A stretch of 64,000 bases of DNA from positions 1 to 64,000 of IMG/VR virus record IMGVR_UViG_3300030098_002071. One strand, 5' to 3'. Position numbers and translations under genes: made by a program. Under the pieces are notes generated by a model. The model saw nothing but the letters and a program-made list of their open reading frames with translations, was not told where the DNA came from and ran no database searches. The DNA is from a virus. Shown here one piece after another: positions 18,606 to 64,000 of the stretch; the stretch's first letter is position 1; each line of letters begins with the position of its first letter.

Positions 18606-18629
18606 TTAGGAAATCATAAGGAGAATATT

Positions 18630-19538: not shown

Positions 19539-19541
19539 ACC

Positions 19542-19569
19542 GTATGACATCATAATTATGATCTCATAC
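19542..19569. promoter_or_regulatory. 28-nt palindromic element, copy 2
   Basis: Left half GTATGACATCATAA, right half TTATGATCTCATAC: one mismatch (C/C at the seventh pair). It begins 4 nt after the DUF3150 gene stop and ends 20 nt before the ATPase ATG. Confidence 0.88.
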
Positions 19570-19589
19570 ACAAATATAGGAGAAGTATC

Positions 19590-20693: not shown

Positions 20694-20701
20694 GAGGATA
20701 C

Positions 20702-21841: not shown

Positions 21842-21853
21842 AGGAGGTAAGTG

Positions 21854-29979: not shown

Positions 29980-31533
29980 GTGGATATAGTAGAGAATAAA
30001 GCGTTACTTTTAAGGCTTAGAAATCCTGCGTTGGTGTTAGATCAAGTATCTAAGTCTAAGTTATACAAAAAATCTAATAGTAAAGGTATTAGTGAAGTTT
30101 TAGTTTATTGGGGCATAAAAGAATCTCAACAACTTACTGAAATAGGTGTTCAGAATGTGCCTTCACCTATAAAAACTAATTATGAGTGGTCGGGTAGATT
30201 TAAACCTTTTGACCACCAGATAGAGACATCTTCATTTCTTACACTACATAAACGGGCCTGTTGCTTTAATGAACAGGGTACAGGTAAGACTGCATCCGTT
30301 ATTTGGGCGGCTGATTACCTAATGAAGCTAGGGTTAGTAAATAGGGTATTAGTTATATGTCCACTATCCATTATGCAATCTGCTTGGATGGAAGATTTGT
30401 TTTCCTGTGCTATGCACAGAACAGCCGCAGTCTGTCACGGTAGGCGAAATAAAAGGGTAGAGGTTGTTGAGTCTGAAGCGGAATTTGTAATTATTAATTA
30501 CGATGGCGTGGAGATAGTAAGAGATGAAATTAAAGATGGCGGGTTTGATTTAATAGTAGTTGACGAGGCTAACGCATATAAGAATGTGTCAACTAAACGG
30601 TGGAAAGTATTACGATCTTTAATAACAGACTCGACAAGATTATGGATGCTTACAGGTACACCTGCATCTCAAAGTCCTGTAGACGCTTACGGGTTAGCTA
30701 AATTAGTTAACCCTACAAATGTACCTAGATTTTTGGGTAGATGGCGAGAAATGGTAATGCGTAAGGTTACACAATTTAAATATATACCTAGAATTGAAGC
30801 TAAAGGATTAGTTTATAAGGCGTTACAACCAGCTATAAGATATACGAAAGAGGAGTGTTTAGATCTACCTGCTATAACTTATGTTACTAGGGATGTAGCT
30901 TTAACTGCACAACAAAATAAATATTATAAGCTAATGAAACAACGACTTATAGTTAATGCCGCAGGGGAAGATATAACAATGGTTAATGCCGCTGCCGCAA
31001 TGAATAAGTTACTACAGTTATCTGGCGGCACTGTGTATTCCGATGAGGGAGAAATAATTACTTTTGATGCCTCCCCTCGCATAAAAGTATTAGATGAGAT
31101 AATAGAAGAGTCATCCCACAAGTTAATTATATTTGTGCCATATAGACACGCCATATTAACTGTATCAGAACACTTAGAAAAATCAGGAATTACCTCCGAA
31201 ATTATAAACGGTGCAGTCAGTGCATCAAAAAGAGCTGATATATTTAAAAGGTTTCAAGAAAAAGAAGACCCCGAAGTTTTAGTTATACAACCTCAAGCCG
31301 CATCACATGGCGTAACTTTGCATCGTGCGGATACAGTCGTGTATTGGAGTCCTGTCATGTCTGTAGAGACTTACCTTCAGTGTAATGCTAGGGCTCATAG
31401 GGCAGGACAAAGAAATCCTGTTACTGTTATTCACCTACAGGGCAGTGAAGTTGAGAGGAAAGTATACAAAATGCTCCAAGATAAAATAGATATCCATTCA
31501 AATATTGTAAACTTATATAAAGATGTGTTATGA
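29980..31533 (+). CDS. SNF2/DEAD-type helicase
   Basis: 517 residues, GTG start preceded by AGGAGG. Superfamily 2 motifs: Q-like FDHQ near 77-80, Walker A NEQGTGKT at 97-104, motif II DEAN at 195-198 (LIVVDEANAYKN), motif III LTGTPASQ, and in the second domain QPQAASHGVTLHRAD and motif VI CNARAHRAGQRNPV. These are SNF2-family features. In phages such helicases assist replication fork or recombination steps. It is the same type found beside DUF2815 and AEP primase genes in many phages. Confidence 0.93.
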   Translation: MDIVENKALLLRLRNPALVLDQVSKSKLYKKSNSKGISEVLVYWGIKESQQLTEIGVQNVPSPIKTNYEWSGRFKPFDHQIETSSFLTLHKRACCFNEQGTGKTASVIWAADYLMKLGLVNRVLVICPLSIMQSAWMEDLFSCAMHRTAAVCHGRRNKRVEVVESEAEFVIINYDGVEIVRDEIKDGGFDLIVVDEANAYKNVSTKRWKVLRSLITDSTRLWMLTGTPASQSPVDAYGLAKLVNPTNVPRFLGRWREMVMRKVTQFKYIPRIEAKGLVYKALQPAIRYTKEECLDLPAITYVTRDVALTAQQNKYYKLMKQRLIVNAAGEDITMVNAAAAMNKLLQLSGGTVYSDEGEIITFDASPRIKVLDEIIEESSHKLIIFVPYRHAILTVSEHLEKSGITSEIINGAVSASKRADIFKRFQEKEDPEVLVIQPQAASHGVTLHRADTVVYWSPVMSVETYLQCNARAHRAGQRNPVTVIHLQGSEVERKVYKMLQDKIDIHSNIVNLYKDVL

Positions 31534-31625
31534 TTGAATTTGTAGTATCAAATAATAATAATATGCAGTTATATGTCACAAAATATATAGGAGATGGTAA
31601 TGGAAAAATCTGGAGTTTCTGCTGA
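31530..31625 (+). CDS. possible tiny protein, 31 aa
   Basis: ATG at 31530 overlaps the helicase stop (ATGA), and the frame runs to TGA at 31623-31625, giving MIEFVVSNNNNMQLYVTKYI plus 11 residues. Its only support is the coupling overlap; it overlaps the next gene by 26 nt. It fills the 66-nt gap otherwise left there. Confidence 0.3.
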   Translation: MIEFVVSNNNNMQLYVTKYIGDGNGKIWSFC

Positions 31626-32001
31626 TGGACTTGTTAAGGCGTATGTCAATATACGTTCTAAACGGGAAGAACTGTCTAAAGAATATGATAGTAAAGACAG
31701 TGAATTAGCTTCTCAATTAAATTTAATTAAGGAAGAGTTGTTAAAGTTGTGTGCCTCTATTGATGCAGATAGCATCAAGACAGGTAGTGGGACAATTACT
31801 CGTACCGTAAAGACTAAGTATATGACTACTGATTGGGAGTCTGTGTATGAGTTTATTAAAAAGAATGACGCAGTGGAGATATTAGAGAAGCGAATACATC
31901 AAGGTAATCTTAGGTCACTGATAGAAGAGAACCCTGATTTATTGCCTAAAGGTATGAACTGCCTTAGAGAATATGCAATTACAGTTAGGAGATCAAGATA
32001 A
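31600..32001 (+). CDS. conserved phage protein with coiled coil, 133 aa
   Basis: ATG at 31600, because the SD AGGAG (31589-31593) is at proper distance; an ATG at 31594 directly abuts it. An N-terminal coiled coil (YVNIRSKREELSKEYDSKDSELASQLNLIKEELLKLC) is followed by GSGTITRTVKTKYMTTDWESVYEFIKKNDAVEILEKRIHQGNLRSLIEENPDLLPKG. I recognise this two-part layout from phage replication regions, where it is usually hypothetical. Overlaps the next start by one base. Confidence 0.75.
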   Translation: MEKSGVSADGLVKAYVNIRSKREELSKEYDSKDSELASQLNLIKEELLKLCASIDADSIKTGSGTITRTVKTKYMTTDWESVYEFIKKNDAVEILEKRIHQGNLRSLIEENPDLLPKGMNCLREYAITVRRSR

Positions 32002-32264
32002 TGACTACGGTTTATGAAGCAAAGCAGGATGACACCCAAATGGTTACGATTGTACAGGTGGCTAAGTATCTAAACGTGAGTGTTAATACCATTAGAAGTC
32101 TTATAAGGAAAAATCAACTCCCTTTTGTAGTTGTAGGGGGAGCCTATAGATTTGACTTAGATGAAATTAAAAAAACTTTGAAGGATACTACGCCAGACAA
32201 TCATAAAAATATATCCAGACGAGGTGATTTAAAATCAAATGAAGAAGATATTACTGAAGAATAG
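32001..32264 (+). CDS. MerR/excisionase-type HTH protein
   Basis: 87 residues. MVTIVQVAKYLNVSVNTIRSLIRKNQLPFVVVGGAYRFDLDEIKK is an HTH_17 domain (VAxxLNVSxxTIRxLIRxxxLPxxxVGxxxRFxxxEI). It binds DNA, as excisionase-like or small transcription regulators do. With no integrase in view, a regulator of viral transcription or a partner of the replication proteins is more likely than excision. ATG overlaps the previous stop. Confidence 0.88.
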   Translation: MTTVYEAKQDDTQMVTIVQVAKYLNVSVNTIRSLIRKNQLPFVVVGGAYRFDLDEIKKTLKDTTPDNHKNISRRGDLKSNEEDITEE

Positions 32265-32874
32265 TAAATTTTCTATTTCTGAAAATGGGGAGTACGCTCC
32301 TGATAATTCTGCTGGTATTCATAAGTGGTTGATAGTTGGAGTTTCAGATACTATGCATAGGACATGGTTTGCAAAAAAGATGGATTACGCAGATTCGCCT
32401 GATTGTTGGAGTAGTGATGGTGTCAAACCAGACGCAGATGTAGATGATGCTCCTAGTGATTCTTGTAAAAAATGCAAGTATGATATAAAAGGGTCAGGAA
32501 ATCACAATTCTAAAGCCTGTAAGTACAGCATAAGGTTAGCCGTAATGCTAGAGGGGGATACAGATTATAATTTATACCAAGTTATACTATCTTCTGCCTC
32601 TATATTTGGGGAAGGCAGTATAGGAAAACATCCCTATAATGCTTACGTGAAACACTTGAAGAAGTATAAGTTAGGCGTTACACATGTAGTAACAGAAGTT
32701 AGATTTGATGAGGAGCATTATACTCCTAGAGTTTTGTTTCGTCCTTTACGGGCGGTAACTGAGGAAGAGTATAACACTGTCTCCACGAAAGGCAGTGAAA
32801 CAAAAGATTTAACAAAATTAGTAGTTGAAAAGAATACTGATATGCAGTTTACGAAAATTGTAGATCATGTATAA
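32239..32874 (+). CDS. conserved phage protein with Cys cluster, possibly ssDNA-binding
   Basis: 211 residues. DSCKKCKYDIKGSGNHNSKACKYSIRLAVMLEG holds a CxxC...C...C-like cluster before a beta-rich body (YQVILSSASIFGEG, YVKHLKKY, RVLFRPLRAV). I know similar proteins (CxxCPxN...G...ACxxxxRLAV) from replication regions of several phages, next to DUF2815 as here. The likely fold is OB-like with a zinc knuckle, binding ssDNA or the polymerase; this is an inference. Starts within the HTH gene. Confidence 0.68.
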   Translation: MKKILLKNSKFSISENGEYAPDNSAGIHKWLIVGVSDTMHRTWFAKKMDYADSPDCWSSDGVKPDADVDDAPSDSCKKCKYDIKGSGNHNSKACKYSIRLAVMLEGDTDYNLYQVILSSASIFGEGSIGKHPYNAYVKHLKKYKLGVTHVVTEVRFDEEHYTPRVLFRPLRAVTEEEYNTVSTKGSETKDLTKLVVEKNTDMQFTKIVDHV

Positions 32875-32908
32875 AACCAAAATTTAAATTAAACATAGGA
32901 GATGTATT

Positions 32909-33475
32909 ATGGCAGAAGCCAAAAAATTACTATCTGAGCCTCGTAACTTTCGCATGAATAATGTGGAGCTTAATTGGCCTAAGTTGGTAAAAGCTGTTAA
33001 TCCTTTTGGGACAGAACAGTGGGAGTTACAAATTGCTACTACTGATAAAAAGGTAGCAGACGAATGGGAGAATAATTATTTTAAGGTTAAGTTTGACAAA
33101 GAGGGTAAAAAGTACACAGTCAATCTTAAACGAAAGGTATATAGGGCTGACGGCAGTGAGAATAAACCTGTACGGGTGGTCGATGCTTCAGTTAAACCAA
33201 TAGATGCTACTAATTTAGGTAATGGTTCTATGGGTAACGTATTGGTTTATCAATATCCTTACGAAACTGCAGGGCGTACTGGAGTAGCAGCATCATTAAC
33301 AGCAGTCCAAGTAATTAAGTTTGAGGAGTATACGGGTGGGGGAGAAGACTTTGAAGTTGTAGATACGTCTGATGCCCTAGATGAACCTACTAAACGTCCT
33401 AGTAAAAAAGATAAAACTCCACCGAAGAATGTGGGGGATGTAGTAAAAGATTGGTCTCAAGAGTCTGACGACTAA
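32909..33475 (+). CDS. DUF2815-like ssDNA-binding protein
   Basis: 188 residues. PRNFRMNNVELNWPKLVKAVNPFGTEQWELQIATTDKKVADEW... with GxGSMGNVLVYQYPYETAGRTGVAASLTAVQVIKFEEYTG fits DUF2815/gp2.5-like OB-fold proteins. The C-terminus is acidic with a terminal WSQESDD, the kind of tail by which phage and bacterial SSBs dock replication partners. It would coat ssDNA at the fork. GGAGATGTATT upstream. Confidence 0.85.
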   Translation: MAEAKKLLSEPRNFRMNNVELNWPKLVKAVNPFGTEQWELQIATTDKKVADEWENNYFKVKFDKEGKKYTVNLKRKVYRADGSENKPVRVVDASVKPIDATNLGNGSMGNVLVYQYPYETAGRTGVAASLTAVQVIKFEEYTGGGEDFEVVDTSDALDEPTKRPSKKDKTPPKNVGDVVKDWSQESDD

Positions 33476-33486
33476 CATTTTGTTTT

Positions 33487-33552
33487 TTGAGATGGGAGCT
33501 TTGGGTAAGTTTTTTCTACCTCTTACTTTCGTGGCTTACTTAGAGCTCTCAA
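33487..33552 (+). promoter_or_regulatory. possible structured leader RNA before the HTH/primase genes
   Basis: Three consecutive complementary arm pairs: TTGA (33487) with TCAA (33549), GAGCT (33496) with AGCTC (33544), and GTAAG (33505) with CTTAC (33535), enclosing a T-rich loop. A 100-nt gap in a tightly packed operon supports a function, possibly an RNA switch or processing site. Confidence 0.4.
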
Positions 33553-33574
33553 CTCATTTATTTAGGGGGGTTAC

Positions 33575-33784
33575 ATGGCATATTCTAGGAGAAGTTTAGG
33601 AGAACGTTTAGGAGATTGTTGCGTTCGTTTGAAAATAACAGCTACTGATATATCTATATTGTTAAATGTATCTAGGCCAACACTATCATCTTGGTTTGAG
33701 GGGACTACTTCACCGACACAAGATATACATATTCATAAAGTTAAAATTCTATTGGCTATGTTAGATAGAGCAGAAAACAGATAA
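33575..33784 (+). CDS. small HTH protein (XRE-like)
   Basis: 69 residues. LGERLGDCCVRLKITATDISILLNVSRPTLSSWFEGTTSPT is a helix-turn-helix of the Cro/CI type (IxxLLNVSRPTLSxWFxG). Small DNA-binding regulator, right before the primase gene. GGGGGG precedes the start by 6 nt. Possible binding targets include the palindromes and TGTAAAAACA repeats; untested. Confidence 0.82.
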   Translation: MAYSRRSLGERLGDCCVRLKITATDISILLNVSRPTLSSWFEGTTSPTQDIHIHKVKILLAMLDRAENR

Positions 33785-33795
33785 AGGCGGTTGTT

Positions 33796-36700
33796 ATGGA
33801 CTCTGAAGAATTTTTAAATCATGTGTTACCTGATAATAATGGGGACATATGCTATAACCTGACCTGTATAGGTAAAGGCACTAAACAATATTTTTACGAC
33901 ACTATAGAGGAAGCGGCAAAGCAAGCGTTGGTTTTTAGTGAGGAAGAACTAGACGTATATTATGGATTTGCAGGTTTTGATGTAGAGGTCTTAGAAAGAT
34001 ATAAGAAAGGTGAGCGAAAGAATTTAAGGACAGCTGATAATGCTAAATTATTTAAATGTCTTGCATTAGATATAGATGTAGATGAAAGCGGCTCAAAAAT
34101 TAATACATATGAGAGCTTAGAAAAAGCAGGGGAAGCACTAAACAAATTTATTACCAATAATAATTTACCGATGCCTTTGATTGTATGTTCGGGGCGTGGG
34201 CTACACGTTTATCAAGTTTTTACCAACGCAATCCCCCACGACAAGTGGCACAAACTAGCTACTGCGTACAAAAACCTAGCTATAGAACAGAATCTAATAA
34301 TAGACCCGTCTGTAACTGCAGATGCGGCTCGTATACTAAGAGTAGTTGGGACTTTTAATAACAAGGGAGAAGTAGGTGTTCCAGTTATTGTATTAAATGA
34401 AGGGGATGATCCGAGAGCATACACATACTGGAGAAATAAATTAAATACAAGCAGTGCGGAAACAGTAGTAGAAGAAACTCCTTCAGAACCTAGTGATGCA
34501 CCTTTAGTGGCTCATAATATTATAGGGCGTAAGGATGATGAACTTTCCTCTACTGTTAAATATAGTTGGAAGATAATAAAAGAGAGTAGAAACTGTCAGC
34601 AAATAAATTTCATGTACGACCACAAAAATGAGGTATCAGAACCTCTCTGGAGATGTGGTACAGGGGTAGCAACATTTTGTATAGACAGAGATTTTGCGAT
34701 ACATGATTTATCTAAAGGGTATGAAGGGTACGATCCAGAGGAGACTAAGAAGAAAGCAGATGGGATTAAGTACGGCCCCATCTCTTGCTTAGAGTTTGAA
34801 AAACAAAACCCAAACGGGTGTAAGGGATGTGAGTTTAAGTCAAGAAAAGGTAGTAAAGGCCCACTTAAAAGCCCCATTCTTTTAGGGGCGACAGTAGAGC
34901 AAGTTGCTTCTGAGGAGCGTGTTGTACTCGATAAAGACACAGGTATAGAGAAAAAAATATCAATGCCTAAGGATTTACCAGATGGGTATATTAGGAGTGA
35001 GAAAGGCATATTTAAAATACGTGAAGGTGACTTACCTCCTTTAGCTATATATCCTGATGATTTCTGGGTGCAGGAACGTCTGTATAGTCGGGTTGATGGT
35101 CATATGATTAGTTTAGTTCATATATTCCCGCACAAAAATGATGGTATAGAGCAATGGGTTATGCCTTATGATTTTAAGAGCCATGTTAGTGAGTTAAGTA
35201 AACATGGAATAGTGATGGCTACTAAAAAAGAAGAAAACTATATTATGGAATATATAGCAGCTTGGATTAATAAATTAAAAACAGAAAGAGCATATGGACA
35301 AGCGTATGTCCAGATGGGTTGGCAGGATGGGCAAGTTATCGAGGGGTCTAGTGATAATGAAATAGAATTTCATACCTCGTTTATTTTAGGTAGGAGAAAG
35401 TTTACAGCAGGGGGAGTTGCGGAGTTACCTTTTGAAGAAGGCATTGGTAAATTAATTAGTGGTGGAGAAAATTCTATTATTGAGGATGATTACATAAAGA
35501 ATGCTACAAATGTACAGGTTGCATCTATATCATCTACTTTAGAACAGACAGCTAGAGCTTTTCCTAAGAAAGGTAGCTTGGAGAAATGGACTAAAGCTAT
35601 TCAGCAGTTATACTCAAGGGATCGGACAGGGCTAAAAGCAGGGGAAGAGGACGGGGAAGAGACTAAACGTTTTGTCATGGGTTATGGTCTAGCTAGTCCT
35701 TTATTTAAATTTACTCCTATTCGTTCTGCTCTATTACACATGGTATCCGGTACTACTGGAAGTGGTAAGACTAGCACGTTGAGAGCTGTTGCTTCTATAT
35801 GGGGACACCCAAAGGATGCGTTGAGTCAAGGTGGGGATACTACTTTTAGTTGGTTCCAAAAGCTAGGCGAGTTTAATAGTGTGCCGTTCTTTATAGACGA
35901 GATAACTGAAATGAACCCTAAAGCAATGTCTCAGCTTATATACAGTCTGTCACATGGTAAAGGACGAGACAGGATGGAAGGTAGCACCAATAGGCTGAGA
36001 GTAAATGAAACCACTTGGTGTACTGGAGTTATTACAACTGCTAATACAGAAGTTTCTTCTGTGTTAAAGAGTATGAAAAATAGGCCAGAAGCAGAATTGG
36101 CTAGGATGTTAGAGATACCTGTAATCGATAATGATTTAACTCTACAAGAAAACACTAAACTAGTAAGTAGTCTAGATCATAATCACGGTCTTGCGGCAGA
36201 AAAATTTATACCTTGGGTTCTTGCTAACCAAGTAGAGTGTGAACGAATTGTCTCAGAAGTTACTGAAAAGATCGTTAAAGAATGTAATCTGGATAAGCGG
36301 CATCGTTTTAAAGCTGCTATGGGTGGTGTTGCTATTGCAGGACTACTGATAGGTAATAAACTAGGGATATGGGATTTTGAAGTAAAAAGCACTTTCCAGT
36401 GGTTCGTTAATATGTTGCTTAGTAACAAAGAAGATGAGGGTACTGATAGGGATAGAGAGACGAGATCACAAGAAGATTGTTTAAGTATTTTAGGTGAGTT
36501 TTTTAACGAGCATAGACCCAATACATTACAAGTAGATGATTCAGATGATTATACAGACGGATTGAAAGAACTGATAAACGTGGGAGGGAAGAGATTGCGA
36601 CCGGAGGCGTTATATATAAGAGATGAGGTACATAGCAAACAGATTGTCGTCATTAGGTCTCGGTTATTAAATTGGTGTAATGAAAACGCTGTACAATTTA

Positions 36701-36882
36701 AAGAGTTAATAAATGATATAGCATCTATAAAAGATGGGAAGGGTAACAGTGCAGTATTAGAAAAAAACAAGCAAATGAGGATAGGTAAAGGGCATAAGGA
36801 TGGGGCAGTTGATTTAAATATTCCTTGTGTTGTGTTTGACGCTACAAAACTAATACCACTAGACGATGATGACTCCGCATAA
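33796..36882 (+). CDS. primase-helicase (AEP-like primase fused to SF3/DUF927-type helicase)
   Basis: 1028 residues. N-terminal AEP/PrimPol-like part: catalytic DID at 92-94 (LALDIDVDE), SGRGLHVY at 132-139, DAARILRVVGTFNNK at 176-190. Middle: a Cys cluster (CGTGVATFC ... CLEF ... CKGC) that may bind zinc. C-terminal ATPase with GTTGSGKTS Walker A around 650-660 and FFIDEITEM Walker B ~40 residues later. It makes primers and unwinds DNA at the fork. Last large gene of the replication operon. Confidence 0.9.
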   Translation: MDSEEFLNHVLPDNNGDICYNLTCIGKGTKQYFYDTIEEAAKQALVFSEEELDVYYGFAGFDVEVLERYKKGERKNLRTADNAKLFKCLALDIDVDESGSKINTYESLEKAGEALNKFITNNNLPMPLIVCSGRGLHVYQVFTNAIPHDKWHKLATAYKNLAIEQNLIIDPSVTADAARILRVVGTFNNKGEVGVPVIVLNEGDDPRAYTYWRNKLNTSSAETVVEETPSEPSDAPLVAHNIIGRKDDELSSTVKYSWKIIKESRNCQQINFMYDHKNEVSEPLWRCGTGVATFCIDRDFAIHDLSKGYEGYDPEETKKKADGIKYGPISCLEFEKQNPNGCKGCEFKSRKGSKGPLKSPILLGATVEQVASEERVVLDKDTGIEKKISMPKDLPDGYIRSEKGIFKIREGDLPPLAIYPDDFWVQERLYSRVDGHMISLVHIFPHKNDGIEQWVMPYDFKSHVSELSKHGIVMATKKEENYIMEYIAAWINKLKTERAYGQAYVQMGWQDGQVIEGSSDNEIEFHTSFILGRRKFTAGGVAELPFEEGIGKLISGGENSIIEDDYIKNATNVQVASISSTLEQTARAFPKKGSLEKWTKAIQQLYSRDRTGLKAGEEDGEETKRFVMGYGLASPLFKFTPIRSALLHMVSGTTGSGKTSTLRAVASIWGHPKDALSQGGDTTFSWFQKLGEFNSVPFFIDEITEMNPKAMSQLIYSLSHGKGRDRMEGSTNRLRVNETTWCTGVITTANTEVSSVLKSMKNRPEAELARMLEIPVIDNDLTLQENTKLVSSLDHNHGLAAEKFIPWVLANQVECERIVSEVTEKIVKECNLDKRHRFKAAMGGVAIAGLLIGNKLGIWDFEVKSTFQWFVNMLLSNKEDEGTDRDRETRSQEDCLSILGEFFNEHRPNTLQVDDSDDYTDGLKELINVGGKRLRPEALYIRDEVHSKQIVVIRSRLLNWCNENAVQFKELINDIASIKDGKGNSAVLEKNKQMRIGKGHKDGAVDLNIPCVVFDATKLIPLDDDDSA

Positions 36883-37102
36883 GATAATCGGTTCGTTATC
36901 TCAGTTTAACTTAGAGGGAACTCCTGTACACATAGACTGGATGGCGTTTCATGTGGGTACTAGTTTTTTCTTGCCTTGTTGTAGATGCATAGCTTTAAAA
37001 AATGAAATAGTAAACAAAGCCATTGTAGCTGGACTAGAAGTAGACTCCAGAATAGTAATAGAAAATGAAGTAAGGGGCGTAAGAACTTGGAGACTATCTT
37101 GA
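36866..37102 (+). CDS. small protein at the end of the early operon
   Basis: 78 residues. HKIIGSLSQFNLEGTPVHIDWMAFHVGTSFFLPCCRCIALKNEIVNKAIVAGLEVDSRIVIENEVRGVRTWR; similar small proteins with G(T/S)SFF(I/V)P and RVWR occur at the end of phage replication operons. Overlaps the primase end by 17 nt; converges with the late gene ending at 37108 only 6 nt away, with no obvious terminator between. Confidence 0.7.
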   Translation: MMTPHKIIGSLSQFNLEGTPVHIDWMAFHVGTSFFLPCCRCIALKNEIVNKAIVAGLEVDSRIVIENEVRGVRTWRLS

Positions 37103-55908: not shown

Positions 55909-56948
55909 TAAGCATCCTTAGAGCAAATTATTACGTCTATGTAATTAACCCCTACATTTGTTGTACCTGATCCCGAAAAACTAGAAGTAGCTGATAACGC
56001 AGGTATGCTGTGCGTATGTGCTGTAGAAGATGCTTTTGAGGTAGATTCAGAACCTGATGTACTTGACCCCGATCCACCTGTAGCACCTGTAGTTTTACTG
56101 TTTACTCTTGTAGTAGAATCCCCTCCTCCAGCACCATCTGTATTTTCTGAAGCCTGTACACCCGCATGTGTATATACGTAGTGAGTGTGACCGGGAATAT
56201 TTTCTATAGTAAGGGCTGTACCACCAGTAGTTCCTGTGCTTACAGATGTAGACACACTACCAGATACTGTTACCGCCCTACTTGTAGCAAATGCTGTAGT
56301 AAATGCTACACTACCACCTGATCCTCCACCTGAACCACTGACTACTCGTAGAGCTTTATCATTATGGCTAGTAGATTTAGTCCAACCAGTGGGGGCCGCA
56401 GATTGGTAAAATAACATTACCGAACCAGTAGGTATAATAGGAGAAGACACCCAAGCAGACCCATTAGACCGTAATACATTACCACTTGTACCTGCAGCTG
56501 TTAACCCTGTACCTCCACCCTCCGGTGCTAATGCTGCCCCTAAATTAGTTAAGCCCGCAACTACATTTGTGCCGTCACAAAATACTAAGACTTTATCTCC
56601 ATTAGCAATAGTTACCCCTGACCCAGAGGATGTTTTAAATACAATAGATTGACTGCCAGAAGTAGCGTTATCAACTACATACAATTTTTCTTTAGTGGGG
56701 CAAATAACATTTCTAGAGGCAGACAATGTGCCTGTCAGTTTAATTATCATTTGTCTTGCTTCGTCACTGACCCCACTATTAGCTGTTAGGGTGTAATTAG
56801 CATCTGACATAGACACTGTAGCGTGTCCTGCTATAGCTTCCTCTATAAGAGTGCCTATATTTACGTTTGTAGTTGTACCCCATGTACCCGACTGTTCGCC
56901 TGAGCCTATGAGTTCTAACCGTAATCTATCCGAATATGTACTTGCCAT
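55908..56948 (-). CDS. tail fiber / collar protein, 346 aa
   Basis: 346 residues. N-terminal anchor MASTYSDRLRLELIGSGEQSGTWGTTTN like that of the fiber at 57805-59106 (MASSYVNDLRLNEMATGDASGTWGNVTN), then a beta-rich body and a collar-type segment IIPTGSVMLFYQSAAPTGWTKSTSHNDKALRVVSG, and a C-terminal Ser/Thr/Gly-rich tip with HTHSIPALSA. The GTxxxFxQxxAPxGWxK...LR motif marks phage tail collar domains. Probably an adhesin at the tail end. Confidence 0.8.
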   Translation of the reverse strand: MASTYSDRLRLELIGSGEQSGTWGTTTNVNIGTLIEEAIAGHATVSMSDANYTLTANSGVSDEARQMIIKLTGTLSASRNVICPTKEKLYVVDNATSGSQSIVFKTSSGSGVTIANGDKVLVFCDGTNVVAGLTNLGAALAPEGGGTGLTAAGTSGNVLRSNGSAWVSSPIIPTGSVMLFYQSAAPTGWTKSTSHNDKALRVVSGSGGGSGGSVAFTTAFATSRAVTVSGSVSTSVSTGTTGGTALTIENIPGHTHYVYTHAGVQASENTDGAGGGDSTTRVNSKTTGATGGSGSSTSGSESTSKASSTAHTHSIPALSATSSFSGSGTTNVGVNYIDVIICSKDA

Positions 56949-56959
56949 TTTTTATCCTA

Positions 56960-57469
56960 TTAAGAAGGTATTTCCGTCCAAATTGTACTAGGTTCTGTTA
57001 TTTCCGTCCAACTACCGGAAGGGCCGTTTGATATCTCTGACCACTGTCCATCTGGGCCTTCTGGGACAGTTGCAAAGAATCCCGCAATACCACCTTCACC
57101 TGCGGTTATAAGTAATCCATCAACACTAATTCCAGCACCTCCCCCCGGTGTTACATTATTAGTAGCAGAAATAACAACACCTGCAGTAGTAACTGTTATA
57201 TTTCCTGTTCCAGTAAGAGTAACGCTTGCTACCCCAGAAGTAATAGCCCCTGCAGTAGTTAAAGTAACCCCTGCCCCACCAGCAACTGTAACGCTAGATA
57301 ACCCAGATGTTATTGCACCTGCAGTAGTAACTGTTATATTCCCCGCCCCACTAGGAGTAACACTAGCAACAGATGAAGTTATAGCTTGTCCTGTTAAGGT
57401 TATCGCCCCATTAACATTAAAGTTACCATCTGAAAAACCTGTAGCTGAATATTGGGGCGTACCAAACAT
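56960..57469 (-). CDS. repetitive beta-rich protein, 169 aa
   Basis: 169 residues built from repeats of about 20 residues: VTPSGAGNITVTTAGAITSG, VTVAGGAGVTLTTAGAITSG, VTLTGTGNITVTTAGVVISA, VTPGGGAGISVDGLLITAGE. Ends in WTEIS...WTEI...IWTEIPS. Probably an elongated beta structure, such as a tail spike or accessory fiber. Located among fibers. No named family recognised. Confidence 0.72.
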   Translation of the reverse strand: MFGTPQYSATGFSDGNFNVNGAITLTGQAITSSVASVTPSGAGNITVTTAGAITSGLSSVTVAGGAGVTLTTAGAITSGVASVTLTGTGNITVTTAGVVISATNNVTPGGGAGISVDGLLITAGEGGIAGFFATVPEGPDGQWSEISNGPSGSWTEITEPSTIWTEIPS

Positions 57470-57592
57470 TTATTCATCCAAACTGTTTAAATATATTATA
57501 TAAATTAAAAGTATTACAAACCCTACTAAAGACAATCCCGCCAAAACCAAAAAAACCACTTCTCCAAACAGCAACACCTTTGAACAACTCAA
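57470..57592 (-). CDS. possible tiny membrane protein, 40 aa
   Basis: TTG at 57592 overlaps the stop of the preceding gene (TTTGAG), TAA at 57470. The product MSCSKVLLFGEVVFLVLAGLSL plus a further hydrophobic stretch is almost entirely one membrane helix. It accounts for the 120-nt gap. A GTG at 57577 is an alternative start. No SD for the TTG; translational coupling would be needed. Confidence 0.45.
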   Translation of the reverse strand: MSCSKVLLFGEVVFLVLAGLSLVGFVILLIYIIYLNSLDE

Positions 57593-57792
57593 ATTTGTGT
57601 CTTACTCACTGCCGTCAAATAAGCAGTTTTTACAGAGTCCGTGTGATGCTCCGCAACTAGAGCTTTTATCTCATCACTCTCAGAACTTGTGTCATCAAGA
57701 GGCGAAATAGTTCGCCTGTGTATCGCACCGTCTGTCTCCTCTCGTATCTCTATAAATTTAAACTCTCCAACCACTCTTGTTGTCACATTCAT
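57589..57792 (-). CDS. small protein, 67 aa
   Basis: 67 residues (MNVTTRVVGEFKFIEIREETDGAIHRRTISPLDDTSSESDEIKALVAEHHTDSVKTAYLTAVSK). The FxFIEIREExxGxIHRRTxxP beginning and HTxxVxxAYxxA end recur in small proteins beside marine phage fibers; possibly a fiber chaperone. 12 nt after the fiber stop. Confidence 0.7.
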   Translation of the reverse strand: MNVTTRVVGEFKFIEIREETDGAIHRRTISPLDDTSSESDEIKALVAEHHTDSVKTAYLTAVSKTQI

Positions 57793-57804
57793 TTGTCGTT
57801 TTCC

Positions 57805-59106
57805 TTATGTTGTGAAATACCTCAAACTGAGCATAAAGTCGGTGTTGTTAGCTAAAAATTGTGCTCCTGTATTCACCTGCAAAGTTGACCCCCCAAAACT
57901 TGTTGCAAGAGAAAAGCTGGCGGCATTGGCCGTGGCAATTGCATAAACTTGATTTGCCGTAATTGTTCCAGAACTCCCCGCAAAGTTTAACCCGTAATGC
58001 AAAAGCGTGCCACTTGGCACAGAATGGTTACTGGCCGTAAAGGGCAGACTTACAAGGAACGTACCCGTTCCCGACCCCAAACTTGTTAAAGTAACCCGAC
58101 AAGTGATATGGCATATACGTCCTATTTTTGTGTAAAATCCAGCACTGTTCGACTGTGTGGTACTAGAGCCACCTACTGTAGCGGTAGCCGTGAACGTCCC
58201 CTCTTCGTAATCGTCCAAAGTGTTCGCATCTGAACTAGCAACTTGCGTGGCTGGAAACGCCACGCCTTTGGCGACAGTTGCAATTTCTGCCAGTGTAACT
58301 TTTCCATCGGATGCGATGGTTATGGCATCCGTGTCAGACGCACTACCAATTGTTTTCCCATCGCCAATGACGAGATCGTCAGCTATGGTCAATAGTCCTG
58401 CGGAACTTAGCGACATTTTTTCAGCCGCCGCCTCAGAACTCGCAGTCTTAAAACTCAACTTAGTAGCGTTGCTACTGCTACTGAAGTCGCCCTCGGATAC
58501 AGCCTCAATTCCTGCTGCAACCAACAATGCGTCGGTGCCTGTGCCCTCGTCAGGAGCCTGAAAATTTATTACTCCCAACTTATCATCAGCAGCAATATCA
58601 GTATCGCCAGTTTGTAATAATAATGTTGCCGGACTAGAACTCGTGGCTGGGTTTTTAATTGTTAACTTGGTAGCAATGTTCAAATCAACTAATAAATCGT
58701 AAACAGCACCACTAGACCCAGCACCGTCTGTGGCAACCATTTTCACGTCGCCATTAGGAATAGTAATAGTAGCACCTGAGCCTTGTTTAATTGTTATAGC
58801 TTTACCGCCTGTGGTGGCGTTTTCTATAATCCAAACTTTAGATAATGTGTTTGGAGCAAGGGTCACTTCTCTATCTGCACTAAGTGAAGTAGAAGTAATT
58901 TTCAAATATAAAGATCTTGCCTCATCTGTTGCACCATCAGCTACTGTAATAGTAGTATTAGCATCACTGCCCAAGTTTTCGGTGCCATAGCTAAACGCTT
59001 CAGCAATCAGCTCTAGGTTAGTATTGGTGACATTTCCCCATGTACCAGAGGCATCACCTGTTGCCATCTCATTGAGTCGTAAATCATTTACATAACTACT
59101 AGCCAT
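57805..59106 (-). CDS. tail fiber protein, copy B (complete)
   Basis: 433 residues. N-terminal anchor MASSYVNDLRLNEMATGDASGTWGN, shared with the 346-aa fiber, then a beta-rich shaft (TITVADGATDEARSLYLKI..., KMVATDGAGSSGAVYDLLVDLN, KLSFKTASSEAAAEKMSL), and a C-terminal domain with TDAITIASDGKVTLAE, TATVGGSSTTQSN and FYTKIGRICHITCRVTLTSLGSGTG. This C-terminal domain is the part repeated at bases 1-287. The protein is a tail fiber or adhesin with exchangeable ends. Confidence 0.85.
   Translation of the reverse strand: MASSYVNDLRLNEMATGDASGTWGNVTNTNLELIAEAFSYGTENLGSDANTTITVADGATDEARSLYLKITSTSLSADREVTLAPNTLSKVWIIENATTGGKAITIKQGSGATITIPNGDVKMVATDGAGSSGAVYDLLVDLNIATKLTIKNPATSSSPATLLLQTGDTDIAADDKLGVINFQAPDEGTGTDALLVAAGIEAVSEGDFSSSSNATKLSFKTASSEAAAEKMSLSSAGLLTIADDLVIGDGKTIGSASDTDAITIASDGKVTLAEIATVAKGVAFPATQVASSDANTLDDYEEGTFTATATVGGSSTTQSNSAGFYTKIGRICHITCRVTLTSLGSGTGTFLVSLPFTASNHSVPSGTLLHYGLNFAGSSGTITANQVYAIATANAASFSLATSFGGSTLQVNTGAQFLANNTDFMLSLRYFTT
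58064..58350. repeat. fiber C-terminal repeat, right copy (partner 1-287)
   Basis: See the left copy at 1-287: same orientation, no indels, 13 differences, first 68 bases identical. The homology begins at the first base of the window, so its true left limit cannot be seen. Confidence 0.95.
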
Positions 59107-59116
59107 AACTAAACTC

Positions 59117-59533
59117 CTAGTCTATCCTAATTATTGCATTTGTTCCTGCTGCTGGAAATACAATTTTGAATGTCCCACTAGAAACTGTAAAGTCACCACC
59201 AAAATCTAAAACAGCTATTGCTTTATCTCCATTAGTGTCATTATAAATCAATGCACCTCGTGCAGTAAAACTAGCTGAAGTCCATGTTGGATCATCAGCA
59301 TCAAAAAAAGCTGTAGTGCCAGAGGTTGAAACCGTAGTGCTAGTCAAAGCAACTCCCCCAGCAGTATAACCACTACCACTAACTTCGTTGCTTGTTGAAT
59401 AAGCTGTGGTACTAGCACCAAGACTCGCACTGCTAGTAAACAACGCCACTTTAATTGTATCTGATGCAAGGTCATGCTGTTCGTCTAAAATTTCTGATTT
59501 AAACGAAGTGCACATTGCTTGTGTAATTGCCAT
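59117..59533 (-). CDS. conserved virion-associated protein, copy B
   Basis: 138 residues, starting MAITQAMCTSFKSEILDEQHDL with LFTSSASLGASTTAYSTSNEVSGSGYTAGGVALT. Homolog of 997-1446 (149 residues): same start, same Ser/Thr-rich core and FPAAGTNAIIRID end. It directly follows the adaptor gene here, without the 96-aa gene that separates the pair in module A. Confidence 0.75.
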   Translation of the reverse strand: MAITQAMCTSFKSEILDEQHDLASDTIKVALFTSSASLGASTTAYSTSNEVSGSGYTAGGVALTSTTVSTSGTTAFFDADDPTWTSASFTARGALIYNDTNGDKAIAVLDFGGDFTVSSGTFKIVFPAAGTNAIIRID

Positions 59534-60159
59534 TAAATCCCTCCGCTGTATTCTGCCGTGTAATCACGAGCCATTTCTTGTTGAAACAATTGTATTGCCT
59601 CGTCAAACTGTCCTTTATATAATTTTAGCGTTTCTCCAGCTTTAAGAAAAGCTGAAGTTTCATATAAAGCACCAGAGAGTAGTACATTCTCTGCATTATC
59701 TCCTATCCAAGTGTTAGTATTTGATGAAGATAAACCTGTTTCTGGTGATATGAAGTCTACCTGATAAGAAAGAGTAGCACTAGGAGTTGGAGCTAAAGTT
59801 ATTACTGTGCCTGAAGTTGTAGCATTTTTAGTGCTGTACATTATTGGTGTACCTGTTGTTGCTGAGTTTTTCCAGTAATCTCTTAAATAGGAATCTATTC
59901 TATGATCTAAATAATTAACATTACTACTAGAGTCTGTTAAAGAAACCTGACGTATCATCCTAGCATTAGCAACAGTGTATTCCGAAGTTCCTACAACAAA
60001 TGTTCCTGTGACTGAGTTTCTGAAACAAGGTAAGCTCGGCAACTTTTGGAAAATCATTTCTTCAGTCTGAGCAATTATTACATTAATAGAGTCTGATAGC
60101 TCAGTTGAATCGTCCTCTATAAAATTTTTAATATTAGCAACCAATTCTGTATAATTCAT
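59533..60159 (-). CDS. SU10-type head-tail adaptor protein, copy B
   Basis: 208 residues from ATG 60159, which follows the TAA of the previous gene by one base; an in-frame upstream ATG at 60198 lies within that gene. MNYTELVANIKNFIEDDSTELSDSINVIIAQTEEMIFQKLP, then LSGALYETSAFLKAGETLKLYKGQFDEAIQLFQQEMARD. Same family and layout as 1736-2368. It joins the portal to the tail in SU10-like phages. Confidence 0.75.
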   Translation of the reverse strand: MNYTELVANIKNFIEDDSTELSDSINVIIAQTEEMIFQKLPSLPCFRNSVTGTFVVGTSEYTVANARMIRQVSLTDSSSNVNYLDHRIDSYLRDYWKNSATTGTPIMYSTKNATTSGTVITLAPTPSATLSYQVDFISPETGLSSSNTNTWIGDNAENVLLSGALYETSAFLKAGETLKLYKGQFDEAIQLFQQEMARDYTAEYSGGI

Positions 60160-60160
60160 A

Positions 60161-60967
60161 TTAACGTCCCCAAGTTCCAGAACCCCAAGTGTCTTCACCC
60201 CAAGCTCTGTTTGTTTCTATCGAAACGCTGCCAACCGCACCTGTACCAGCAACTCCTGTTTCAGTGATAGATGCTTCTGGAACTTCTGTTCCAACCGCAC
60301 CTGTAGCAGCAACTCCCACCTCTGTAATTGAGGTTTCAAATGTTTCTGTCCCTATTGCTCCCGCACCAGAAACTCCTGTTTCAGTTATAGATGCCTCTGG
60401 GACTTCTGTTCCTACTGCACCTGTACCAGCCAGCCCTGTTTCAGTGATAGATGCCTCTAGTGCTTCTGTTCCCACTGCACCTGTAGCAGCAACTCCTGTT
60501 TCAGTGATAGATGTTTCAAGTACTTCTGTTCCCACTGCACCTGTACCAGCCAGCCCTGTTTCAGTTATAGATGCCTCTGGTGTTTCTGTTCCTATTGCTC
60601 CAGTGCCTGCAACTCCACTTGGCTCTGTGTCCGTAGATATAAGCAGATCTGTTCTAGGGTCAAAACCAACCCCACCCACAGCATTTACTCCTACTCCTGG
60701 ACGCAGTCTAGGGTCAGTAAATATATCTCCATAATTATAACCTACAAAAAAACTTACATCATCAGGATCAGAACTCGGTCTAGGCTTAAAGAGTGATGTT
60801 GCATCAATTACATTCCTAGGAGGTCTTAGTTGAGGGTGCTTTTTATCATACTCCTCTGGCTCAACTCTTAAACCTTTCCAAGTAGTCTTCAACGATTTAT
60901 ACGGCACTTTAAATCCACTAATATCGCTCATAGCGACTGATTTTTTGCCTTTTGCGTATTTAACCAC
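60161..60967 (-). CDS. MPKYATGK-family protein with a 20-aa tandem repeat
   Basis: 268 residues. N-terminal domain MVKYAKGKKSVAMSDISGFKVPYKSLKTTWKG and EPEEYDKKHPQLRPPRNVIDATSLFKPRPSSDPDDVSFFVGYNYG belongs to the same family as the genes at 2832 and 60968. Residues ~123-248 are six 20-residue repeats of the type GAVGTEVPEASITETGVAGT, followed by a Trp-rich end (RAWGEDTWGSGTWGR). The repeats probably form a beta solenoid or a flexible arm. Copy A at 2832-3170 lacks them, so the insertion is module specific. Confidence 0.75.
   Translation of the reverse strand: MVKYAKGKKSVAMSDISGFKVPYKSLKTTWKGLRVEPEEYDKKHPQLRPPRNVIDATSLFKPRPSSDPDDVSFFVGYNYGDIFTDPRLRPGVGVNAVGGVGFDPRTDLLISTDTEPSGVAGTGAIGTETPEASITETGLAGTGAVGTEVLETSITETGVAATGAVGTEALEASITETGLAGTGAVGTEVPEASITETGVSGAGAIGTETFETSITEVGVAATGAVGTEVPEASITETGVAGTGAVGSVSIETNRAWGEDTWGSGTWGR
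60242..60601 (-). repeat. coding minisatellite, six 60-bp units
   Basis: A 60-bp unit (codons GAVGTEVPEASITETGVAGT and variants) is repeated six times plus a partial unit, in frame. Units alternate between the endings GLAGT and GVAAT/GVAGT, as if dimers had been duplicated. The repeat also leaves a long shadow frame on the plus strand. Confidence 0.95.
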
Positions 60968-61288
60968 TTAGCTCACCGATATTGTAAAATTTCCTATTGT
61001 GCCTTTTGCAGCAATGCCGACATTTATTTTATTTCTATCTTGTGTTAAAGAATAATTGTAGCCTACAAAAAAAGCAACCTCTTCCTGATCTGCATCTGCT
61101 CTAGGTTTAAAAAGTGCAACAGCATCTATTATATTTTTCCTAGGAGTTAACTGAGGTTGTTTGTGATCGTACTCTTCTGGTTCAACTTTCAGCCCATCCC
61201 AAGTAGTTTTTAGTTTCCTATACGGAACTTCAAAACCTGTGATATCACTAATTGCTACTGATTTTTTGCCTTTTGCTCGCCTAAGCAT
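60968..61288 (-). CDS. MPKYATGK-family protein, tandem paralog
   Basis: 106 residues: MLRRAKGKKSVAISDITGFEVPYRKLKTTWDGLKVEPEEYDHKQPQLTPRKNIIDAVALFKPRADADQEEVAFFVGYNY. Very similar to the first ~100 residues of the adjacent 60161-60967 product, with which it abuts without a gap, so module B contains a tandem duplication of a gene that is single in module A. Confidence 0.78.
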   Translation of the reverse strand: MLRRAKGKKSVAISDITGFEVPYRKLKTTWDGLKVEPEEYDHKQPQLTPRKNIIDAVALFKPRADADQEEVAFFVGYNYSLTQDRNKINVGIAAKGTIGNFTISVS

Positions 61289-61289
61289 A

Positions 61290-61970
61290 CTATGATAAAT
61301 TTAACCCTGTTGGACGAATCCTCATACTAACACCATCATTGTCTGTAGAGGCTGCAAATTCAAAAGCCCTTTCATAAACTTGGTTAAGAATATCAAATTT
61401 TTCTGGTTGATACTTCATAGCTAATTTACTTGCTAGTCCTGCACAAATACAATCCGACCACCTATAGGGCACATCTGCATCTTGATTAGACTCTGTGATA
61501 TCTTCTAATTGGTTTATTGACCAATAAACTAAACTATAAGAAGTGTCTTCAGGAACTTGCCATATGTAAATTACAGGTGTGTACTGTTTATCAATCATAT
61601 ACTGACTAGGCTTACCAGAAGAGCTTTTATTAGGCAGTTGATTATAGTCTGCTATGCTAATTCTTTCTACAGAAGTATCTGTTGTTGTGCTACCAACCGT
61701 TTCTCTCACCACAACATCAATTAAATCTATTGTACCAACAGGCAAAGTATAATTTTTCGTGTCTGCTGCAAGGCTAAGAGTATTATTCTGAACAGCCCAA
61801 TAGTTTATACCTCTATTGGACCATTCGGAAAAAAGCATGTTTAAACTGCGTCGAGCTGATTCAGCATGATAACCTGTGCGAGTTTGAGCATCAATACCAC
61901 AACGTTCGTATGCTTCGGAAATTATTTCCTCTACATTAGGTCTAAATGCGACTGTGCCTGAAGTTGTCAT
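61290..61970 (-). CDS. head-tail connector / tail completion protein, copy B
   Basis: 226 residues. EIISEAYERCGIDAQTRTGYHAESARRSLNMLFSEWSNRGINYW, LSLAADTKNYTLPVGTIDLIDVVVRE, SLVYWSINQLEDI..., YRWSDCICAGLASKLAMKY. Homolog of 3335-4021 with the same motif order. Stop overlaps nothing; the start overlaps the previous stop by one base. Confidence 0.75.
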   Translation of the reverse strand: MTTSGTVAFRPNVEEIISEAYERCGIDAQTRTGYHAESARRSLNMLFSEWSNRGINYWAVQNNTLSLAADTKNYTLPVGTIDLIDVVVRETVGSTTTDTSVERISIADYNQLPNKSSSGKPSQYMIDKQYTPVIYIWQVPEDTSYSLVYWSINQLEDITESNQDADVPYRWSDCICAGLASKLAMKYQPEKFDILNQVYERAFEFAASTDNDGVSMRIRPTGLNLS

Positions 61971-62383
61971 TAGTATTGCTTTATTGCTCGGATAACAACT
62001 TGGTAAGCATCACCTGTTGCACCTGCACCAGTAGTGGTAAATTTTATATCGCCTGTACCATTAGTTCCATAACCAGAGCTCGTAGGCAACCCTCCTAATG
62101 TAGAAAAGTTTTGGTAACCGCTTTGCCCTTCTGTTAAATGCAACATAATAACGTCTGTGTCTGCGTCAGCCAACACCTCTACAGTCATTGCGGATATAAC
62201 CCACCATATTTCTGCTATCCGAACTCCTGTGCAAGCACTACCATCTGCACTATTACTTAACCCAGATACATCTATTTTAAGCACAGCACTTTCATTACCT
62301 GTGTCAACATATTGATACTGAAAAGCGTAAACGACCTCACGAGTGCTTTCTGATATTTTAGTTGATGTTGTAATGTCTGCCAT
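61970..62383 (-). CDS. structural protein, 137 aa
   Basis: 137 residues; MADITTSTKISESTREVVYAFQYQYVDTGNESAVLKIDVSGLS, GVRIAEIWWVISAMTVEVLADADTDVIMLHLTEGQSG. I have seen similar proteins (beta-rich, W-W, ending RK-I-K) in capsid-gene neighbourhoods. It takes the place of the 93-aa gene and following small genes in module A, but is not a homolog of them. A head stabilisation role is possible. Confidence 0.65.
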   Translation of the reverse strand: MADITTSTKISESTREVVYAFQYQYVDTGNESAVLKIDVSGLSNSADGSACTGVRIAEIWWVISAMTVEVLADADTDVIMLHLTEGQSGYQNFSTLGGLPTSSGYGTNGTGDIKFTTTGAGATGDAYQVVIRAIKQY

Positions 62384-62398
62384 AATCTATCCTCCTTA

Positions 62399-62881
62399 CT
62401 AAGAAGCGTCAGAAGAACTAGATAGCCCAAAGAATTTCATAACAACAGTAGTATCTGCTCCGGGATCTCCAGAGAGAACAATCTCAACCTCATCTGCTGT
62501 GGCAGTGGCTGCTGTAGTAGCTCCTCCAGACATTCCTAAAACGCCATTGCAAGGGAAAAACCCTTTAAATCCCACTGAGTTTACTGCAGCTGAAATACCG
62601 TCTACAAATCCATCCGTATCGGCATCTGTGCCTATGTCTTGTAAATTAACAGCATTAGATGCAGCTCCAGTAACAGCTATCATTACACCCATTGGGATAA
62701 AATTAGAAGGAATACCAATAGCAGATTCTTTGCCTGTGGTATCACCGTCAGCAACGGTTACAGTTGCCACATAGGTTTCCATAGACATTGTATTAGTAAC
62801 AGCTCCTGTTGTGCTGTTAGTTATGATGGCATCGAAACCATCTTTGGACCGCACTGGTCCTGTGAATGTAGTATTAGCCAT
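62399..62881 (-). CDS. MANTTF-family structural protein, copy B
   Basis: 160 residues, about nine differences from the product of 5431-5913; most substitutions cluster at residues 20-29 (ITNSTTGAVT versus KTSTTTGEIT). DNA is also close to 90% identical, much more than for the neighbouring capsid and connector genes. Capsid-associated role as for copy A. Confidence 0.78.
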   Translation of the reverse strand: MANTTFTGPVRSKDGFDAIITNSTTGAVTNTMSMETYVATVTVADGDTTGKESAIGIPSNFIPMGVMIAVTGAASNAVNLQDIGTDADTDGFVDGISAAVNSVGFKGFFPCNGVLGMSGGATTAATATADEVEIVLSGDPGADTTVVMKFFGLSSSSDAS

Positions 62882-62933
62882 AATTAATCTCCTGTCTTGG
62901 CTATTGTCAGCTTTACGCTGTCAGAAGTTAAAG
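62882..62933 (-). promoter_or_regulatory. conserved leader of the MANTTF gene, copy B
   Basis: Nearly identical to 5914-5965, including AGGAG and GTCAG repeats. The homology ends just before the terminator hairpin. Confidence 0.45.
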
Positions 62934-62938
62934 ATTAA

Positions 62939-62962
62939 GGGGAAAGGCTATTGCCTTTCCCC
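62939..62962 (-). terminator. hairpin after MCP-B
   Basis: Ten-base-pair stem GGGGAAAGGC / GCCTTTCCCC with a 4-nt loop, 9 nt after the capsid stop; on the minus strand it is followed by TTAATCTTTAA, a weak U tract. Probably a partial terminator analogous to the double terminator behind MCP-A, though the stem sequence is unrelated. Confidence 0.75.
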
Positions 62963-62970
62963 TTATTTTG

Positions 62971-63879
62971 TTATGCAGCTCCTTCGGAACCAAAAAGTCC
63001 ACGCCAATCAGTAAACCCGAAAGAATATCTTTCACGCACTTTATAGCGTACATTCCCTGTTTCAAAGTCACCTTCCATGCCCTTTTTAAGAGGAGAACGT
63101 TGGAACATTTTTAAGCCATCAGGAACATCAGTTTTGACGAAGAATGCATCCGAGTCTGAAAGTCTACGCATAATATGGTAGCCTTGTGGTAAGTAACCAC
63201 CAGACCTAATAGCATTGATGTCGTTATCAGCTGTGCCTGTTCTAAGCTGTGACTCTAGTAACCTTTCTGCCACAAAAGTGTAAGCAGTTGGGACAATTAA
63301 CATTGTGCCTTGTGCAGCAACCCTAAGTCCACGATCGTCTTTCATATCAGCAATCTGAATAAGAATAGACTCTAGTGAAGTTTCGGAAAGGTCTGCAGCA
63401 GTAGCCAATGTGTTACTTTGGTTCCCGTTACGAGTTGGATGAGATGTGCTTAAAAGAGTCACCCCATCACCACCTGTAAAGCCAGCAGTTGTTGCATTGT
63501 TAAGAATATTTGCTGCTTTAATTTCTTTAGTTGCTGCCATTGAACGTGCTAATGCTTTTGTGTAACGAGAAGCAATCGATCCATACTGGCCATCCTCTTC
63601 TGCCTCTTCTGTTATACTGAAAGCTAAAGCGATTGTTTCATGCTGATAGCGTGCAGTCCATTGCTGGCTTGCAGTATCATATGATATAGCAGCACCTTCA
63701 TTCTTAACCGGAGCATTACCAAACCCCTCTAACAAAACATCTTCTTCAAATGCTCTGTTTGAGCTATTGGCTTCGAACACCGGAGCGTGCTCTGGTGGAT
63801 AACTATCATACTCAAGACCGAAGAGGGTGTTCAATCCTGGCTCGAGCATTTTAGCAAATTGAGCTCTATTCATTGCCAT
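62971..63879 (-). CDS. major capsid protein, copy B
   Basis: 302 residues, same length as copy A. RAQFAKMLEPGLNTLFGLEYDSYPPEH, AFEEDVLLEGFGNAPVKNEGAAISYDTASQQWTARYQHETIALAFSITEEAEEDGQYGSIASRYTKALARSMAATKEIKAANILNN, C-terminal VRYKVRERYSFGFTDWRGLFGSEGAA. About half of the residues are identical to copy A by eye, with the conserved stretches spread over the whole length, so both should fold as complete capsid subunits. SD AGGAGG upstream. Confidence 0.88.
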   Translation of the reverse strand: MAMNRAQFAKMLEPGLNTLFGLEYDSYPPEHAPVFEANSSNRAFEEDVLLEGFGNAPVKNEGAAISYDTASQQWTARYQHETIALAFSITEEAEEDGQYGSIASRYTKALARSMAATKEIKAANILNNATTAGFTGGDGVTLLSTSHPTRNGNQSNTLATAADLSETSLESILIQIADMKDDRGLRVAAQGTMLIVPTAYTFVAERLLESQLRTGTADNDINAIRSGGYLPQGYHIMRRLSDSDAFFVKTDVPDGLKMFQRSPLKKGMEGDFETGNVRYKVRERYSFGFTDWRGLFGSEGAA

Positions 63880-63895
63880 TGTTTATACCCTCCTA

Positions 63896-64000
63896 TTAAA
63901 TGCCAGCACTGTCTTTTAGAAGATGCTCGTTTATAAGCACTTCCATGACAGCGTTGGTTCCAAAAGAATTTTCAGGAGCATCATACAAAGCAATAATTTT
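63896..64000 (-). CDS. C-terminal end of a gene upstream of MCP-B (partial)
   Basis: The last 34 codons of a leftward gene that enters from the right edge: ...KIIALYDAPENSFGTNAVMEVLINE..., stop at 63896-63898. It is not similar to the end of the gene before MCP-A (…GGHAYMVGTGL), so the modules may differ there. Too short to identify. Confidence 0.55.
   Translation of the reverse strand, partial: KIIALYDAPENSFGTNAVMEVLINEHLLKDSAGI

Follow-up and report, generated by a model that had tools for sequence, protein, structure and literature searches.

The window analysed here, bases 1-64,000 of the viral record IMGVR_UViG_3300030098_002071, contains two modules of head genes, each with a major capsid protein (MCP) gene. 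Analysis of the complete IMG/VR record (77,758 bases, classed as linear) indicated that the contig is very probably an assembly chimera of two related phage genomes, designated here as phage A and phage B, because the phage A part closes on itself through an end overlap, the nearest relatives change at one point, the two parts occur on separate contigs elsewhere, and nearly all MCP-bearing relatives have a single MCP. Bases 1 to ~58,063 would be the complete, circularly closing genome of phage A, of the HTVC023P/DSL-LC04 type. The assembler probably left this circle unclosed within 55,956-58,131, around the fibre tip, where A and B are identical or nearly so; the assembly would then have run into phage B, which has a CRP-901-type head, through its fibre, connector, MCP, portal and large terminase (TerL) genes to base 77,758. 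That A and B shared a sample, and by which exact event they were joined, are what we infer from this arrangement.

Two Head Modules

Bases 58,001-77,758 were added to the window, and all open reading frames (ORFs) of at least 60 amino acids (aa) were compared with each other by BLASTP (E ≤ 1e-3). The comparison revealed two homologous, diverged head modules, A and B, with identical gene order, both leftward and offset by about 58 kilobases (kb). Module B passes the window edge, and its portal and TerL genes are reached before the contig ends at 77758. The two modules are genuine in the sequence, and their likeness is far above chance expectation. The protein identity of the pairs was 27-59%, the sole exception being the gene behind the MCP (94%). 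Pfam recognized both MCPs (Phage_capsid_4, Mu-like gpT), both TerLs and the adaptor of module A (SU10_adaptor), while PHROGs recognized both MCPs, both TerLs and both portals (PHROG 1216). The G+C content was 0.35-0.43 across the whole window, and composition does not set the two halves apart.

A preliminary description, made from the letters of the window, had reported two structural modules in the same order and orientation about 58 kb apart, with some pairs weakly similar and others almost identical, and the BLASTP pairs bore this out. It had called the MCPs about half identical; they are diverged homologues, and the measured identity was 59%. The module was said to extend to 7.1 kb, where the duplication is present, but it continues to the portal and TerL, beyond the window. 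The reported tandem duplicate in module B (60161 / 60968) was found, its members being 60% identical to each other. Six small genes were said to be missing from module B, and the count gave five: the module A genes at 1446, 2365, 4022, 4841 and 5135, between MCP and fibre, had no counterpart in B at the above thresholds. The ORF at 60161-60967 also contains repeats spaced by 60 bases at 60231-60616, which are 81-96% alike.

Closure of the Phage A Genome

Contig bases 1-68 are an exact copy of 58,064-58,131; bases 1-58,063 can therefore be closed as a circle, and the stretch 1-58,131 behaves as a circular genome whose ends overlap by 68 bases and whose unit length is 58,063 bases. Over 287 bases, 1-287 and 58064-58350 showed 95.5% DNA identity, with divergence beyond. 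After closure, the phage A fibre gene (1-996 joined to 57805-58063) formed a single open frame of 414 aa, and its first 226 residues, which come wholly from bases 1-996, were 96% identical to the fibre at the same place in G023, a relative of A. The records of the four named A-type phages (HTVC023P, HTVC027P, 023Pt_psg01 and DSL-LC04) range from 57,595 to 61,547 bases, with a single MCP match each; for two whole viral contigs whose ends repeat exactly, the units were 60,946 and 66,711 bases.

One of the two possibilities raised in the preliminary description, that two related phages were joined at a fibre domain after a wrap-around of about 58 kb, is supported by this closure, by the switch of relatives at 57.8 kb and by the separate contigs G023, G025 and G022 described below.

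Change of Relatives along the Contig

Coding-strand ORFs of at least 80 aa were compared with 13 A-type and 7 B-type records, which were grouped by their head genes and included the four named A-type phages and the named B-type phages CRP-901 and CRP-902; G022, which overlaps module B itself, and G024, which has no head genes, were omitted from the count. From 0.9 to 57.5 kb, 47 of 60 ORFs had a match, all 47 best in A-type records (13 without match). From 57.8 to 77.8 kb, 22 of 24 ORFs had a match, all 22 best in B-type records (2 without match). The best relatives thus switch at a single point, 57.8 kb, and the whole contig is covered by no single relative. Within the replication/metabolism region (15766..37102), 12 of the 22 ORFs had a match, every best one being A-type.

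TerL, portal, MCP and adaptor of part A lie in the same order as in the HTVC023P/DSL-LC04 group and were closest to it, with 55-59% identity for TerL and 63-65% for MCP to the four named phages and the same head gene order; the adaptor taken alone was nearly equal between the groups (199 bits with CRP-901, 208 with DSL-LC04). Part A differs from the HTVC023P type in that many of its replication and tail proteins match IMG/VR contigs exclusively or better. The same four genes of part B, also in order, were closest to the CRP-901 group; the Roseobacter phages CRP-901 and CRP-902 share the head gene order, with identities of 86% (MCP), 72% (portal) and 78% (TerL). Passages of the CRP-901 paper (PMC10149686) give genome sizes of 53.01 and 51.95 kb and state that many CRP-901 structural genes have relatives in HTVC023P and HTVC027P (29.63-56.52% aa identity), while the replication genes do not. 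The distance between those structural genes is about that between modules A and B here.

Separate Contigs of Phages A and B

Both parts were found in a context of their own elsewhere, A in G023 and G025 and B in G022 and G013. G023 (19.6 kb) contains the tail at 48.7-57.8 kb (81-93% DNA identity), its own fibre tip and then head A at 0.3-9.1 kb (90-94%). In G025 (28.6 kb), the tail at 49.7-57.0 kb is joined to 0.5-13.9 kb, including TerL. Both are relatives of A belonging to a different strain.

G022 (36.6 kb, metagenome 3300030329) matched 55,956-77,758 with 17 differences in 21,803 bases (99.9%). Bases 55956-58425 were free of mismatches, and 4 of the 17 differences lay in the last 125 bases. 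Another 11 lay within 43 bases of the phage B fibre gene (58,426-58,468), which may reflect a local allele swap or an assembly switch. G022 extends 14.8 kb beyond the contig end into different replication genes; at the thresholds used, the sole spot that this extra part has in common with the contig was at ~22.0-22.2 kb (203 bases at 73%). Among its proteins are ones aligning with the primase and the UvrD-like helicase annotated in DSL-LC04, and these scored highest with the B-type record G013 and then with DSL-LC04. In G022, module B is followed by other replication genes; phage B thus seems to be a separate phage with a replication region of its own. No CRP-901-type replication module was found in B: none of the 29 ORFs of at least 80 aa before 14.7 kb of G022 matched CRP-901 or CRP-902, the latter compared without its last 1,954 bases (E ≤ 1e-4). 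On these matches, phage B has the head of CRP-901, not its entire plan.

MCP and TerL Counts and Other Probable Overrun Contigs

MCP genes were counted in 48 records of relatives (MCP A as query in 27 + 15, MCP B in 6), which were picked, mostly for greater length, from scans listing 80 loci each. A single MCP was found in 40 records, none in 7 and two in one, G010. At least 50 kb long were 23 of the 48, and 22 of these had a single MCP, G010 being the record with two. The second MCP of G010 is cut by the contig end and sits in a terminal stretch that is 78.7% DNA-identical to the contig start; it looks like an overrun too. With TerL A as query, a single gene was found in 29 of 33 records, in six of these given as two adjacent pieces; 4 records had none, and no record had two genes. 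The other possibility of the preliminary description, one genome with two capsid/connector sets, found no support in these counts.

In G012, the two TerL pieces (6307-6807 and 7843-8814) are about 1 kb apart and adjoin at residue 180/181. An intron, a mobile gene or a break are candidates for this gap, in which no Rfam family reached threshold.

Diverged copies at the ends (79-86% DNA identity) were observed in G005, G010, G012 and G028. Among the eight whole relatives of at least 59 kb, these four had diverged end copies, G006 and G011 had exact ones, G009 was unclear and G030 had none. In G028 (87,451 bases), 1-3097 recurs at 63,674-66,754 (80.6% DNA identity) and is followed by diverged copies of further proteins, the overrun being about 24 kb long; the tail protein at 50203-52407 and the helicase-like protein at 29980-31533 were matched twice, and MCP, TerL and DNA polymerase once. 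The end copies in these four contigs are probably the same type of assembly error as in the present contig. The doubled genes thus differ between contigs, which fits a dependence on the position at which the contig starts.

Passages of a viral assembly benchmark (PMC5610896) describe chimeric contigs of co-existing viruses with similar regions, usually less than 2.5% of the assembled sets and less than 5% of the large contigs in simulated data. As in the chimeras described there, related genomes appear to be joined here at high identity, and the contig exceeds the closed genome. Unlike in those passages, the join comes after a full turn, so that the second head module looks duplicated.

Shared Fibre Tip and Gene behind the MCP

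Two islands of A and B are far more alike than their neighbours. The preliminary description listed a fibre in both modules; the C-terminal tip is indeed common, and the likeness is confined to it. Where the contig gives both tips separately, 99 of 116 residues agree, a count from which the last 85 tip residues were left out, since these are read from a single stretch and necessarily agree. The tip shared by A and B is not like that of G013 and only weakly like that of G023, which are close relatives of each, and it had no match in the phage collection.

The second island, 5414-5962 against 62381-62932, showed 88.8% DNA identity over 553 bases and carries the gene behind the MCP. Of the 14 A-group records, among them G024 without head genes, one had this gene; of the 8 B-group records, 3 had it with the A copy as query and 4 with the B copy. 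DSL-LC04 has a gene annotated as cement protein at the same position, which had no sequence match to the gene at 5431-5913. Also within this island, an Rfam search detected a Mu-gpT-DE RNA element (RF03012) behind each MCP, at 5911-5956 (-) and 62879-62926 (-), which ends at the start codon of the next gene; the score was 50 bits in A (gathering score 49) and 43.5 bits in B, below the gathering score.

Exchange between the lineages is the probable cause of the likeness in both islands, and the tip suggests an exchanged host-binding part. Such exchange is best read as ordinary phage mosaicism among co-occurring phages.

Alternative Explanations

Some observations weigh against an assembly chimera. 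G022 holds 55956-58063 joined to module B, and the join is thus not unique to this record; the 40-mer just upstream of 58064 matched G022 alone. No other record showed the closure of A in the same strain: an A-specific 33-mer matched no viral contig, among which near-identical records may have been left out. Most relatives are fragments, and a second module outside such a contig would escape the counts. The stretch 55956-58063 may be an A-like cassette that B gained recently, or both assemblies may have run across the same sequence there; neither case alone would place both MCP genes on one molecule.

An alternative is a real hybrid, formed by recombination at the fibre tip in a cell infected by both A and B, which would be an A-B concatemer or a recombinant phage with head B and tail A. 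The fibre tip (95.5%) and the island (88.8% DNA), set against most neighbours at 27-59% protein identity, suggest that the lineages exchange DNA. G022 has B beside the A-like stretch 55956-57792 with zero mismatches, and within that stretch the gene at 56960-57469 had a 95% match in G023 and none in the 7 other B-type records. Against this, assembly would require a molecule with both complete modules to be sufficiently abundant, and G022 stops at 55,956, where the tail of A should go on. A real hybrid is held to be highly unlikely. The same small likelihood is given to a wider scenario, in which one cell would harbour two lineages whose cultured relatives infect Pelagibacter and Roseobacter; these would trade the fibre tip together with the gene that follows the MCP, and molecules with both modules would result.

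A single phage genome of at least 78 kb, with two complete head modules serving as alternative or mixed capsids, is extremely unlikely. In its favour, both modules are intact within one contig, and the join of 55956-58063 to module B recurs in G022. But the circle closes at 58,063, G022 goes from module B to other replication genes, the relatives switch cleanly at 57.8 kb, MCP and TerL are not present as two complete genes in any of the relatives searched, and the overrun in G028 doubles other genes. A search for literature on two major capsid proteins or two head modules gave no such case, judged by titles and abstract openings among the papers listed; absence from print is not claimed.

Tandem prophages were rejected, as the module order agrees with a single closing genome followed by an overrun; the window had no tRNA gene among the search results, and integrases were not searched for. 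A genuine segmental duplication was rejected likewise, since each copy belongs to its own lineage and identity is mostly 27-59%, apart from two near-identical islands. Size alone was discarded as an argument, since single-MCP records of 72 and 87 kb exist, the 87-kb one being itself overrun.

Table 1. Features of the contig and BLASTP pairs between modules A and B (positions on the complete record)
Feature	Position	Strand	Remarks
Contig start, closing overlap of phage A	1..68	.	exact copy of 58064-58131
5' part of phage A fibre gene	1..996	-	cut by contig start
Connector, adaptor and small genes, module A	997..5913	-	SU10-type adaptor at 3335-4021
Gene behind MCP-A ('MANTTF' protein)	5431..5913	-	PHROG 36974, unknown function; 94% to B copy
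Major capsid protein A	6151..7059	-	Phage_capsid_4 / Mu-like gpT, PHROG 371
Module A genes, MCP to portal	7074..9758	-	9161-9595 matches GroES genes annotated in relatives
Portal A	9758..12166	-	PHROG 1216
Large terminase A	12547..14067	-	Terminase_6C, PHROG 38
Replication/metabolism region, phage A	15766..37102	+	family A DNA polymerase at 27200-29044
Tail region, phage A	37108..57792	-	downstream of head module A in closed genome
Stretch also in G022 end	55956..58131	.	zero mismatches; chimeric join probably here
Fibre gene, phage B	57805..59106	-	
Connector/adaptor genes, module B	59117..62881	-	includes tandem duplicate 60161 / 60968
Gene behind MCP-B	62399..62881	-	94% identical to 5431-5913
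Major capsid protein B	62971..63879	-	86% identical to Roseobacter phage CRP-901 MCP
Rest of module B, start	63896..64000	-	onward: portal 73484-75916, TerL 75909-77417, end 77758
BLASTP pair	A 997-1446, B 59117-59533		51%
BLASTP pair	A 1736-2368, B 59533-60198		28%
BLASTP pair	A 2832-3170, B 60161-60967		39%
Adaptor pair	A 3335-4021, B 61290-61970		44%
Pair behind MCP	A 5431-5913, B 62399-62881		94% protein
MCP pair	A 6151-7059, B 62971-63879		59%
BLASTP pair	A 7074, B 63896		38%
BLASTP pair	A 7742, B 64473		32%
BLASTP pair	A 8210, B 64952		27-32%
BLASTP pair	A 9161, B 65849		32%
BLASTP pair	A 9567, B 66207		40%
Portal pair	A 9758-12166, B 73484-75916		35%
TerL pair	A 12547-14067, B 75909-77417		36%

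Implications

A double-capsid genome, if true, would challenge the picture of how tailed phages are built; the present record is probably not one. A simple check for long viral contigs is to compare the first bases with the interior and to see whether the relatives change one genome length further on. By this check, the record would be divided at about 58.06 kb, leaving phage A complete and phage B as a fragment. The real biology that remains is modest and consists of the shared fibre tip and the gene behind the MCP, which probably come from exchange. The common fibre tip suggests that such joins can mark sites at which phages exchange host-binding parts.

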